The notes under the pieces are model-generated. The model searched no databases. It had not been told where the DNA came from and saw only the letters and a program-made list of their open reading frames with translations. Below are positions 2,946-64,000 of a stretch of 64,000 nucleotides of DNA, piece by piece. The first letter of the stretch is position 1. Each line of letters opens with the position of its first letter. Made by a program: the position numbers and the translations under genes. This stretch comes from Rhizobium sp. LC145 (GTDB lineage Bacteria > Pseudomonadota > Alphaproteobacteria > Rhizobiales > Rhizobiaceae): positions 310,001 through 374,000 of the forward strand of contig NZ_LBHV01000001.1 in assembly GCF_001005825.1 (NCBI RefSeq), given 5' to 3'.

Positions 2946-4340
2946 TCAGGCGTCCACGCGCTCGCCGTTCACCACCCGGTAGCTCGGCTTGTACATGGTG
3001 ACGAGTTCTTCGGCAGCCGTCGGATGCACCGCCATGGTGCGGTCGAAATCTTCCTTGGTGAGCCCGGCCTTCAACGGAATGCCCAGAAGCTGCGCCATCT
3101 CGCCCGCGTCGTGGCCGAGAACGTGCGCGCCAACCACCTTGCGGCTCTTCGCATCGACCACGAGCTTCATGATCATCTTCTCCGCGCGGCCCGAGAGCGT
3201 CGCCTTCATCGGGCGGAATTCGGCGCGGTAGACCTCGATCACGGGATATTTCTTACAGGCGGCTTCTTCCGAAAGCCCGACCGTGCCGATCTCGGGCTGC
3301 GAGAAGACGGCCGTCGGGATGAGTTCGTGGTCGGGCGCCGTCGGATTGTCCTTGAAGGCCGTCTCGATGAAGCACATGGCCTCATGGATCGCTACCGGGG
3401 TCAGCTGTACCCGGTCGGTGACATCGCCGAGTGCGTAGATATGCGGAATGCTCGTGCGGGAATATTCGTCCACGACGATCGCTCCGCGCTCGTTCACCTC
3501 GACGCCGGCTGCCTCCAGTCCGAGTCCTTGCGTGTTCGGATCGCGCCCAAGAGCCAGCATGATCGTATCGACGGCGATCGTCTCGCCGCTGAGGGTGCGG
3601 GCGACGAGCCCGCCGGCCGGCGCCTTCGTCACTTCCTCGATGACATCGGTCAGGACGATGCGGATACCCTTTTCCACCATCGCCTTGTGGAGCCCCTGGC
3701 GCATATCCTGGTCGAAGCGGACAAGGATCTCCTTGCCGCGATAGATCAGCGTCGTATCCACGCCGAGGCCGTGGAAGATATTGGCGAACTCAACCGCGAT
3801 GTAGCCGCCGCCTGAAATCAGGATCGAGCGCGGCAGCTCGGGCAGATCGAAGGCCTCGTTGGAGGAAATGCAGAGCTCGTGCCCGGGAAGGGCAGCGTGC
3901 GGGTTCGGCGAGCCGCCGGTCGCGATCACGATCTTTTCCGCCGTGACGGTCTTGCCCGTATTTACCAGCCGGATCGTGTGGGCATCCACCAGTTCGGCCC
4001 GAGTTTCCAGAACCTCGGCGCCGTTATTCTCCAGTCCCCTGCGGTAGAGGCCTTCGAGACGGGCGATCTCCTTGTCCTTGGCGGCGATCAGCTTCTTCCA
4101 GTCGAAGGTGCTCGTTCCCACCTCCCAGCCGAAGCCAACGGCATCCTCGAAATGCTCGCCGAATTGCGAGGCGTAGACGAAGAGTTTCTTCGGCACGCAG
4201 CCACGGATGACGCAGGTTCCGCCGAAGCGATATTCTTCCGCGATCGCCACCCTCTTTCCGAGCGACGCCGCGACGCGGCCCGCCCTCACGCCCCCCGATC
4301 CGCCACCGATCACAAAGAGGTCGTAATCATAGGCGGCCAT
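2946..4340 (-). CDS. gor: Glutathione-disulfide reductase
   Basis: An NADPH-dependent flavoenzyme that reduces glutathione disulfide and maintains cytoplasmic thiol balance. The 464-residue protein has the FAD-binding GGGSGG motif at residues 12-17. The redox-active pair Cys43/Cys48 lies in GGTCVIRGCVPKK, a second Rossmann motif (GGGYIAVEFA) binds NADPH, and the HPT motif near the C-terminus carries the proton-relay histidine. The ATG at 4340 has AAGGAG seven bases upstream, so an in-frame start 39 bases further upstream is unlikely. It follows the DUF2059 gene on the same strand, separated by a terminator, so it is probably transcribed separately. Confidence 0.95.
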   Translation of the reverse strand: MAAYDYDLFVIGGGSGGVRAGRVAASLGKRVAIAEEYRFGGTCVIRGCVPKKLFVYASQFGEHFEDAVGFGWEVGTSTFDWKKLIAAKDKEIARLEGLYRRGLENNGAEVLETRAELVDAHTIRLVNTGKTVTAEKIVIATGGSPNPHAALPGHELCISSNEAFDLPELPRSILISGGGYIAVEFANIFHGLGVDTTLIYRGKEILVRFDQDMRQGLHKAMVEKGIRIVLTDVIEEVTKAPAGGLVARTLSGETIAVDTIMLALGRDPNTQGLGLEAAGVEVNERGAIVVDEYSRTSIPHIYALGDVTDRVQLTPVAIHEAMCFIETAFKDNPTAPDHELIPTAVFSQPEIGTVGLSEEAACKKYPVIEVYRAEFRPMKATLSGRAEKMIMKLVVDAKSRKVVGAHVLGHDAGEMAQLLGIPLKAGLTKEDFDRTMAVHPTAAEELVTMYKPSYRVVNGERVDA

Positions 4341-60993: not shown

Positions 60994-63900
60994 ATGGCCA
61001 GATCTCCGAAGAAATCCCCAGCCTCGAACGGTTTCGAGGAAGCCCCGCAATCGTCGTTTGAAGGCGCTCCCCTGTCCGGATCGGTATCCGACTGGGTGAA
61101 GCAGCTCGAGGCCGAAGCGGAAGCCTCATCGGTCGAGACGCAGCGCGAAATCGCGTCGAAGGCGGGCAAGCACCGCAAGAAGATCGAGATCGAGGCGCGC
61201 GAGGAAGCCATCAAGCAGGCGGCCAAGGACGCGGCGAAGTCCAAGCCTAAAACGGCAAAGAACACCACCGCCTCCAAGACCGCCCGCGGCGTGTCGATCG
61301 GCGCTTCCTCCGACCCGAAGACCCGCGCCGCCGCCGGCCTGAACCCGGTCGCCGGCATGGATGTGTCGCTGGAGGATGCCGGCAGCCTTGCCACCGGTTC
61401 GGTCACTGCCACGGTCGAGGCGCTGTCGGCGCTGATCGAATCGGGCAATCCGCTGTTCAAGGATGGCAAGCTGTGGACGCCGCACCGACCGCATCGTCCG
61501 GAAAAGTCGGAAGGCGGCGTCACCATCCGCATGGCCTCCGATTACCAGCCGGCCGGCGACCAGCCGACCGCCATCCGCGACCTCGTCGAGGGCATCAACA
61601 ACAACGAACGTAGCCAGGTCCTGCTCGGCGTCACCGGCTCGGGCAAGACCTTCACCATGGCCAAGGTGATCGAGGCGACCCAGCGCCCGGCGGTCATCCT
61701 CGCGCCCAACAAGACGCTCGCCGCCCAGCTCTATTCGGAGTTCAAGAACTTCTTCCCCGACAATGCGGTGGAATATTTCGTTTCCTATTACGACTATTAC
61801 CAGCCGGAAGCCTATGTGCCGCGCTCCGATACCTTCATCGAGAAGGAATCGTCGATCAACGAGCAGATCGACCGGATGCGCCATTCCGCCACCCGCTCGC
61901 TGCTGGAGCGCGACGACTGCATCATCGTCGCCTCGGTCTCCTGCATCTACGGTATCGGCTCGGTCGAGACCTATACGGCCATGACCTTCCAGATGTCGGT
62001 CGGCGACCGGCTGGACCAGCGCCAGCTGCTGGCCGATCTCGTGGCCCAGCAATACAAGCGCCGCGACATGGATTTCACCCGCGGCTCGTTCCGAGTCCGC
62101 GGCGATACGATCGAAATCTTCCCGGCCCACCTGGAAGACGCGGCCTGGCGCATTTCCATGTTCGGCGACGAGATCGACGCGATCACCGAGTTCGACCCGC
62201 TGACCGGCCAGAAGACCGGCGACCTGAAATCGGTCAAGATCTACGCCAACTCGCACTACGTGACGCCGCGCCCCACCCTCAACGGCGCCATCAAATCGAT
62301 CAAGGAAGAGCTCAAGCACCGGCTCGCCGAACTGGAAAAGGGCGGCCGCCTCCTGGAAGCGCAGCGGCTCGAACAGCGCACCCGCTACGATATCGAAATG
62401 CTCGAGGCGACCGGCTCCTGTGCCGGCATCGAGAACTATTCGCGCTATCTCACCGGCCGCAATCCCGGCGAACCGCCGCCCACCCTGTTCGAATACATCC
62501 CCGACAACGCCCTGCTGTTCATCGACGAAAGCCACGTCTCCGTCAGCCAGATCGGCGGCATGTACCGGGGCGATTTTCGCAGAAAAGCGACGCTTGCCGA
62601 ATACGGTTTCCGCCTGCCCTCCTGCATGGACAACCGCCCGCTGCGCTTCGAGGAATGGGATGCCATGCGGCCGCTCACCATCGCCGTTTCGGCCACCCCC
62701 GGCAATTGGGAGATGGAACAGGCTGGCGGCGTCTTCGCCGAACAGGTGATCCGCCCGACCGGCCTCATCGACCCGCCCGTCGAGGTCCGCTCCGCCCGCT
62801 CCCAGGTGGACGACGTGCTCGGCGAGATCCGCGAGACCGCCGCCAAGGGTTATCGCACGCTCTGCACCGTGCTCACCAAGCGCATGGCGGAAGACCTCAC
62901 CGAATACCTGCACGAACAGGGCATTCGCGTCCGCTACATGCACTCGGACATCGACACGCTGGAGCGCATCGAGATCATCCGCGACCTCCGCCTCGGCGCC
63001 TTCGATTGCCTCGTCGGCATCAACCTCCTGCGCGAGGGCCTCGACATTCCCGAATGCGGCTTCGTCGCCATCCTCGATGCCGACAAGGAAGGTTTCCTCC
63101 GCTCCGAAACCTCGCTCATCCAGACGATCGGCCGCGCAGCGCGTAACGTCGACGGCAAGGTCATTCTCTATGCCGACAACATCACCGGCTCGATGCAGCG
63201 CGCCATGGACGAGACCGCGCGCCGCCGCGAGAAGCAGATGGAATACAACATCGCCAACGGCATCACGCCGGAATCGGTAAAGGCCCGCATTTCCGACATC
63301 CTCGACAGCGTCTACGAGCGCGACCATGTCCGCGCCGACATTTCCGGCGTCTCGGGCAAGGGCTTTGCCGATGGCGGCCACCTGGTCGGCAACAACCTGC
63401 AGACCCATCTCAACGCGCTGGAAAAATCCATGCGCGACGCCGCCGCCGATCTCGATTTCGAAAAGGCCGCCCGCCTGCGCGACGAGATCAAGCGCCTCAA
63501 GGCCGCCGAACTGGCGGTCATGGACGACCCGATTGCCAAGCAAGAGGCGGCGAGTGCCGAAGGCACGAGGGGGAGCCGAAAAAATGAGGAGGCGCGCGCT
63601 GTCGAGGGCAGCAACAAGAAGAGCAAGGGTGCCGCGGGCTCAGCCAACTCCCTCCCCCTTGTGGGGAGGGTTGGGGAGGGGAAAGCCACGATCGAGACCC
63701 CTCCCGGTCCTTCGGACCACCCTCCCCACAAGGGGGAGGGTTTGGGAGCCCGCGGCTCCCTCTTCGCCAAACCCTCTTTGGACGACATGGGCCGCGACAT
63801 CGCCGAACCCGCCCGCCCGTCCTCGGGCTCGACCCGGGGATCACTCTTCCGCAAGAACACGCTGGACGAAATGACCGTCGGCCGCACGGAAAAGCCGGTC

Positions 63901-64000
63901 ACCGGCAAAATACCGCCGAAGCCGGTTGGCACGACGGGCTCCCTCCCCCCTGTAGGGAGGGTTGGGGAGGAGTCCAGCGACTCCTCCTCGGACCTGACCC
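60994..64000 (+). CDS. uvrB: Excinuclease ABC subunit B (3' end beyond window)
   Basis: Damage-verifying helicase-like subunit of nucleotide excision repair. A 170-residue charged N-terminal extension, usual in alphaproteobacteria, precedes the core beginning [17 protein letters not shown]. Walker A GVTGSGKT is at about 212-219, the damage-probing hairpin follows at [12 protein letters not shown], Walker B DESH lies at 511-514, and the helicase motifs up to [10 protein letters not shown] follow. The UVR domain that binds UvrA/UvrC is near 805-840 ([16 protein letters not shown]). After it comes an extra tail of more than 160 residues containing a palindromic repeat in frame. No stop occurs before the window ends, over 1002 codons. 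The ATG at 60994 lacks a strong SD. Confidence 0.95.
63650..63740. repeat. Palindromic repeat inserted in frame in uvrB
   Basis: Two perfect 22-base inverted arms (63650-63671 and 63719-63740) beginning CCCTCCCCCTTGTGGGG enclose 47 bases. These contain a smaller hairpin (GGTCC-TTC-GGACC, 63706-63718). The whole element is GC-rich and reads through without stop in the uvrB frame, adding a Pro/Gly-rich segment ([11 protein letters not shown] through PPHKGEGLG). Such elements are normally intergenic in Rhizobiales, from memory. Confidence 0.85.
63941..64000. repeat. Second copy of the palindromic repeat, cut by the window end
   Basis: CCCTCCCCCCTGTAGGGAGG at 63941-63960 followed by GTTGGGGAGG repeats the left arm of the 63650 element with a few differences (the same VGRVGE peptide is encoded). 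The remainder would lie beyond base 64000. It also stays open in the uvrB frame. Confidence 0.75.

Follow-up and report, generated by a model that had tools for sequence, protein, structure and literature searches.

Palindromic elements read in frame in the C-terminal tail of UvrB in Rhizobium sp. LC145 and its relatives

Introduction

Near its 3' end, the uvrB gene of Rhizobium sp. LC145 contains a long, perfect palindrome that is open in the reading frame of the gene, and the question raised by this locus is whether such a segment is an old part of UvrB or a repetitive element that entered the gene in frame, and, in the latter case, how often this has happened in related bacteria. The best-known case of in-frame palindromic insertions is that of Rickettsia, for which reduced genomes and weak selection offer an easy explanation. 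In the present case, the genomes have approximately 4–7 Mb, the host is a conserved repair protein, several families of elements are involved, and their turnover between species is fast. The occupied and empty sites form a natural series for asking whether selfish DNA builds new protein segments, why a single frame is retained, and whether DNA-repair genes are favoured targets. The DNA analysed here, referred to as the window, is a stretch of 64,000 nucleotides (contig NZ_LBHV01000001.1, positions 310,001 to 374,000 of the forward strand), and coordinates given without a prefix are those of the window.

The palindrome and its setting in uvrB

The uvrB coding sequence lies on the plus strand and runs past the end of the window (60994..64000), the full gene, of 1043 amino acids, being located at L009:495-3626 of the same genome. 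The NCBIfam model of UvrB covers residues 179-837 in a profile match, and the last recognised domain is the UVR motif (Pfam PF02151, residues 806-837; 63409..63504, plus strand), beyond which there is a tail of approximately 206 residues, rich in Gly, Ser, Pro, Arg, and Lys. The AlphaFold pLDDT values are 37-54 in the blocks of this tail and above 90 in the UVR motif, with the truncated part of the helicase being low as well. An alignment of 22 UvrB C-termini defines two native motifs on the plus strand, one of 14 residues that makes up the right flank of the insert (63757..63798) and the other of 18 residues (63844..63897), almost invariant in the relatives aligned; the motif FRKN.LDEMTV.RTE is also almost invariant in these 22 sequences. 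As an observation in its own right, short motifs resembling [LY]F.KP.LD.MG recur along the native tail, as exemplified by the two intervals above.

The arms of the palindrome, which were recovered by inverted-repeat search, library match, and folding, occupy 63650..63671 on the plus strand and 63719..63740 on the minus strand, have 22 nt each, are 100% complementary, and are spaced by 47 nt. The left arm is the core of a unit of the family here termed A and is read as 11 amino acids, while the right arm represents the second unit of a doublet, in the opposite orientation, and is read as HPPHKGEG. The whole block is open in the uvrB frame, and the earlier note was right in describing a perfect 22-bp inverted repeat which lies in frame in the C-terminal tail and is free of stops. 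The nested hairpin reported in that note is present, but it is not single, given that RNA/DNA folding produces a 22-bp stem capped by two hairpins, the first at 63674..63705 (plus strand; 63674-63681 paired with 63698-63705) and the second, GGTCC/GGACC, at 63706..63718 (plus strand; 63706-63710 paired with 63714-63718). As RNA, the 121-nt stretch has a predicted energy of -87.5 kcal/mol (z -6.6), and as DNA, of -49.9 (z -7.2); in both cases none of 200 shuffles was as good.

The pattern of the arms, when up to three mismatches are permitted, has four matches in the window, against the 0.01 expected. A further single family-A unit, identified through the repeat search and the library, is found in frame on the plus strand at 63941..63970 (the copy spans about 63939-63970) and is read as 11 amino acids, and a palindrome of family C, which resembles the CGTC-REPs, is read in frame as SSGSTRGS at 63820..63842 (plus strand; 91% match to the family consensus). 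An identity in Rfam was considered and rejected, as the 41 weak matches in 63300-64000 were all below the gathering score and came mostly from microRNA models triggered by the hairpin.

A dispersed family and an empty site

The block is one doublet of family A, which is present in approximately 35 places in the same genome, including uvrB, when neighbours within 250 nt are merged and matches that merely repeat the palindrome are left out. At least 58 matches to the block have E<=0.001 (40 of the 71 first-look candidates were scored), and six other places match it over approximately 93-110 nt at 77-82% identity, which agrees with the expectation of many copies elsewhere, these being mostly outside genes among the clusters sampled in this genome. 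The copies are composed of two types of unit, CCCCTCCCC-loop-GGGGAGGGG-TTGGGGAGGGG and CCCTCCCC-loop-GGGGAGGG-TGGCCGGCAGGCC-GGGAGGGG, which are frequently paired in opposite orientation. Scoring by a rough codon model, with the window as its training sequence, showed a coding frame that continues through the element in two of 23 repeat clusters (from 20 loci of this genome, best matches), both of them in uvrB. When only the flanks were compared, the best frame was the same on the two sides in 10 of the 23 clusters, and both flanks were free of stops solely in the uvrB doublet. Family A was found in 24 of 40 genomes of the genus and family B in 36, with no matches to the reversed-pattern control.

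The inserted block has 117 nt, that is, 39 codons (63640..63756, plus strand), and is missing from the UvrB of L052 (genome G019), in which the flanks are intact. In an alignment with the L052 row made by eye, the 39 codons, a length which is a multiple of three, replace one Lys codon, and an uninterrupted stretch of 18 amino acids is found where the window has KGAAG, the 39 inserted residues, and the native flank. In the core tree, L052 is the row nearest to the UvrB of the window by path, and the two-row set that holds the window has 99% local support; in terms of core identity, L052 and L033 are tied as the highest, at 91.9%. A relative without exactly this block and with its flanks kept, which the earlier note had named as support for an insertion, is found in the nearest position of the tree. 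The tail of L052 carries two copies of family E instead, and a doublet is found at a comparable place in Sinorhizobium glycinis (L098).

Occupancy and turnover of the UvrB tail

The sample comprised 110 tails from 110 loci, 109 of them distinct, of which 30 came from the same genus and 80 from named contigs (at least one of these, L060, is also of the genus, and L053 and L105 are truncated by contig ends). Both genomic copies and the tails served as sources for the ten element consensi that form the library, so that the counts of presence are partly circular and should be read as descriptive: 96 elements were recognised in 58 of the 109 distinct tails, i.e., in 29 of 30 from the genus and 29 of 79 from the named contigs. 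The tails of different species carry different families, situated between the conserved native motifs, and the same family may be found in different slots, just as different families may be found in the same slot. An expression combining FRKN.LDEMTV.RTE with a GKTGRPG-like end matched 52 of the 58 element-bearing tails. Among the six failures, L053 and L105 lie at contig ends, L051 reaches a stop, L134 and L138 have a different end, and L101, which ends in SKTGRPGQ, fails through the expression only. No library match was found in 163,262 nt upstream of the tails.

Three of the families, A, B, and C, are genome-wide repeats; copies of family C, for example, were found in all three genomes tried, with 45 in one of them. 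Under a strict pattern, family D was found solely in the uvrB of G001, G002, and G034, and for family E four of the six matches in G019 were outside uvrB, with two in the genome of the window and none in G007 or G009, while family F had one or two copies outside uvrB in each of two genomes and none in G004 or the genome of the window. With looser matching, the 903,094 nt of fetched DNA were found to contain copies of every family beyond the tails, and the shuffled control gave none. Of these looser copies, 6/7 of family D, 3/6 of E, 2/5 of F, and 1/1 of G are located in the first 1 kb downstream of uvrB, so that families D and G may not extend beyond the region of this gene.

In 30 genomes of the genus, nine of 609 copies of the family-B pattern fall in uvrB tails against 0.06 expected from tail length, and five of 75 copies of family A against 0.008, enrichments of approximately 150-fold and 600-fold which serve as an upper guide, since the calculation assumes independent copies and a uniform genome. 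The in-frame palindrome described in the earlier note is real and, rather than one exceptional insertion, it is part of a recurrent hotspot occupied by several families.

The turnover of these elements was followed on a tree built from 1200 nt of the uvrB core, in which 27 of 106 inner branches are open, so that all counts of changes are inflated. On this tree, the six carriers of family A in the first slot require six changes, the twenty carriers of family B require fifteen (18.5 for shuffled labels), and most other combinations of family and slot require as many changes as shuffled labels. In the third slot, the eight carriers of family B require five changes (7.9 when shuffled), and the four carriers of family C two (4.0 when shuffled), which show that these two families are inherited in part at this position. 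Some of the sharing, i.e., that of family B in the third slot and that of the FtsY doublet described below, may be by descent.

Reading frame and likeness at the DNA level

In the tails, forward copies almost always use one phase per family: 27/27 for B+, 11/11 for C+, 8/8 for Aa+, 6/6 for E+, 4/4 for G+, and 3/3 for D2+. Exceptions were found in two of ten D+ copies, one of six F+ (in the frame-broken L051), and one of four H+, and Ab+ has one copy in each of two phases, while the reverse copies of family B (B-) use two phases, with four and two copies. In L051 (G015), of the same genus, the tail meets a stop within a family-F element whose phase differs from the usual one, which reflects either a broken gene or a sequence error.

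This bias is due only in part to stops, because other phases are often open outside uvrB: in 152 fetched copies of family B from outside the gene, phases 0, 1, and 2 are open in 90, 150, and 152, and, when 12-nt flanks are added, in 66, 90, and 145, respectively. The forward frames in use yield hydrophilic peptides, and the unused forward frames of families B and A include Cys or Trp, from which we infer a filter acting on the peptide; the insertion itself might also be phase-biased.

At the DNA level, a codon alignment of 23 full-length copies of family B gave an identity of 0.917 at third positions, against 0.688 in the aligned UvrB core, with the element exceeding the core in all 253 of 253 pairs. 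Third positions were above the core in 21/21 pairs for family D, 14/14 for E, 20/28 for C, and 5/6 for F. The second, small hairpin of family B has ten cells changed on both sides in 20 distinct UvrB copies, a value reached by none of 500 shuffles (the number of both-sided pairs was reached by 16/500 and that of pair types by 40/500), and the peptide encoded over it shifts from S..R.T to P..K.A or G..S.P. In the first, longer hairpin, no both-sided change was found, with 95% of cells paired and six of nine pairs varying by breaking only. The covariation of the small hairpin supports kinship to mobile subfamilies, while the long hairpin is simply well kept. The in-gene copies track the mobile family and not the host gene. 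The outcome which had been named as contrary to an insertion, in which relatives keep the peptide and lose the palindrome, was not seen; rather, third positions in family B are 92% identical against 69% in the core, and in one hairpin the two strands vary together at the cost of the encoded peptide.

Elements in other genes

Insertions in frame are not restricted to UvrB. In 89 clusters of family B from four genomes of the genus, which do not include uvrB, a strict in-frame test was passed by six, four of them in FtsY (G014, G021, G007, and G010) and the other two in RibD and a heavy-metal ATPase of G014; an in-frame copy in CobN (G014) was missed by the strict rule and seen by eye. Profiles confirmed RibD and CobN, in each of which the match falls in two stretches, as well as FtsY (G014 and G021) and the heavy-metal P-type ATPase, and the phase of B+ in RibD, CobN, and FtsY is that used in UvrB. 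In RibD (L152:200-1477, G014), a doublet of family B, approximately 60 residues long, is found in frame within the reductase domain, where it splits the profile match in two.

Elements were found in 17 of the 18 FtsY N-terminal regions read, out of 30 loci, and the genome of the window also carries an element in its FtsY. The B+ copies are in the UvrB phase in 15 of the 17 and in another in the remaining two. In the acidic N-terminal domain of this protein (L224-L253), a doublet of family B, sometimes accompanied by family E, was observed in a similar position in the majority of the 18 regions, and this doublet was probably inherited.

Origin of the in-gene copies

Given the comparisons above, the block is very likely a non-autonomous doublet of family A that was inserted in frame, and elements of this kind would have entered the UvrB tail recurrently across the sampled Hyphomicrobiales, most notably in this genus. 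Elements would arrive at random phases and sites, and most of those that reach a gene would be lost, leaving the copies that fall between native motifs and whose frame yields a hydrophilic peptide free of Cys and Trp. Later losses and replacements would lead to turnover between species, and conversion between copies may help to keep the elements alike.

This last process could have a greater role, in that old insertions in UvrB and FtsY might be continually overwritten by genomic copies, in which case most of the apparently independent insertions would be products of conversion and replacement. The evidence closest to this possibility comes from FtsY, in which most of the N-termini read have the doublet in a similar position and yet the third positions of 19 B+ copies, kept only in the main phase, have an identity of 0.927, against 0.658 in the GTPase domain (30 domains read) and 0.48 in the native flank, the latter two ungapped (93% vs 66% and 48%). 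This likeness could stem from genomic copies that homogenise the element, from reinsertion on several occasions, or from hairpin constraint. Conversion at one site, on the other hand, does not give rise to the same family in different slots and different families in the same slot of UvrB, and L052, the closest relative, has other elements, so that conversion is rather unlikely to be the main source of the pattern.

Selection could also have acted in favour of the elements, if the hairpin or the peptide in UvrB altered repair or the behaviour of the mRNA. An adaptive role has been speculated for repair genes tagged by REPs, in the part of that study considered here (PMC3733652), and the strong hotspot in a repair gene, the use of one frame per family in forward orientation, and the earlier report of REPs in the uvrB of R. 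conorii and in other repair genes in the same source (PMC3733652) are compatible with this. As judged from sequence patterns, such a role would nevertheless be improbable, given that close species differ in the families, slots, and numbers of their elements, that 50 of the 79 named-contig tails have no library element, and that FtsY, RibD, CobN, and an ATPase are also struck.

Mobilisation by a RAYT, as in REP/REPIN systems, would account for short stem-loops, doublets in opposite orientation, and a location mostly outside genes, as in the sample from the genome of the window. RAYTs belong to the Y1 transposase family. The corresponding profile, PF01797, had no match in the genome of the window and matched in two of 40 genomes of the genus (the other 38, including that of the window, had none); the two matches, which we take to be IS200-like, have no clear element adjoining them, with one weak 21-nt library match, and one of the stretches reaches a contig end. 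A Y1 transposase flanked by the repeat was not found in these genomes, and this system is very unlikely to be the one at work.

The least probable of the explanations, that the block is a native peptide repeat, vertically inherited as an old part of UvrB and palindromic by chance through its Pro/Gly-rich codons, may draw on the Gly/Ser/Pro/Arg/Lys-rich composition of the tail and on the comparable place of the doublet in S. glycinis, but it is refuted because copies exist elsewhere (approximately 35 genomic places, with the in-frame test passed in 23 sampled clusters by two in uvrB only) and the site is empty in L052, the closest row, to which are added the far greater likeness of family-B third positions than of the core and the both-sided changes in a family-B hairpin.

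Relation to known palindromic repeats

In-frame palindromic elements are a hallmark of Rickettsia, according to the parts of the literature considered here (PMC10969869, PMC2229807). The Rickettsia palindromic elements (RPEs) are short palindromes which occupy intergenic DNA as well as in-frame positions in conserved proteins and whose encoded peptide is conserved, as described in the same portions of these papers (PMC10969869, PMC2229807), and the present elements share this behaviour, both in the existence of a palindromic block of 117 nt, within the range of approximately 100-150 nt, with intergenic copies and in-frame copies in conserved genes, and in the use of one frame per family, almost always so in forward copies, with reverse B copies in two phases in UvrB. 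They differ in that the families are G+C-rich and belong to free-living Rhizobiaceae, in which one tail is struck repeatedly by several families with turnover between species. The likeness to Rickettsia drawn in the earlier note holds for behaviour, i.e., for intergenic and in-frame copies, and is not put forward as a kinship of sequence. By analogy, the elements may be said to behave like RPEs, and they are assigned here neither to the RPEs nor to the RAYT-REPs.

Palindromes within genes, with uvrB as a target, are already known, as the GTAG and CGTC REPs are described inside genes of several species, many of them repair genes, including two single REPs in the uvrB of R. conorii, in the part of that paper considered here (PMC3733652). 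The present case resembles this one in its intragenic copies and in the inclusion of uvrB among the targets, as seen in those passages (PMC3733652), and 9 of 20 exact family-C stems, from palindromes scanned on both strands, are preceded by CGTC, the window copy being diverged (91%); a CGTC REP has this tag beside a stem of 8-9 bp with a loop of 4-5 nt. Families A and B have a small hairpin in addition, and neither a GTAG nor a CGTC tag was evident by eye in the copies inspected. The portions of PMC3733652 considered here name bradyrhizobial REPs and present no UvrB-tail hotspot in Rhizobiaceae.

Intergenic palindromic repeats of rhizobia, such as the RIME, the Sm repeats, and the A, B, and C palindromes of Sinorhizobium, offer another likeness, in the part of the source considered (PMC2573895), in which they are described as intergenic; the families studied here are set apart from them by this description only and may overlap with them (PMC2573895). 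The ERIC/RU elements and other MITE fusions are similar in being small and non-autonomous, with open frames fused to genes, in the sections considered of PMC2229807. Target duplication and defined termini belong to ERIC according to the same sections (PMC2229807). As to the features of a MITE, the inverted repeats of the present elements are clear and no target duplication was identified.

Judged by title or by the beginning of the abstract, no report on insertions in rhizobial UvrB was found among the papers that the searches listed. The recurrent, multi-family, and frame-biased occupation of the UvrB tail and of the FtsY N-terminus in free-living Rhizobiaceae is unreported in the literature searched.

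Implications for the host proteins

These insertions very probably represent selfish DNA by which a conserved protein of free-living bacteria acquires additional peptides, in a manner similar to that described in Rickettsia, and neither the tails of uvrB nor the N-termini of FtsY should be regarded as the product of vertical descent alone. A wider and more tentative proposal, which we hold to be possible though somewhat doubtful, is that free-living Rhizobiaceae harbour palindromes that fit one benign hydrophilic frame, with disordered-looking tails (the UvrB C-terminal tail and the FtsY N-terminal domain) as their standing reservoirs, and that concerted evolution links the in-gene copies to the genomic families. 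If this were true, selfish DNA would set both the pace and the rules of change in parts of conserved proteins.

The end of the gene

Finally, the last 100 nt or so of uvrB, including the stop, are repeated downstream with approximately 90% identity (L009:3520-3626 vs 3735-3839), just past the end of the window, and a family-C palindrome (G000:C1:374192-374219) is found between the two copies of the gene end. This arrangement suggests a repeat-associated segmental duplication.
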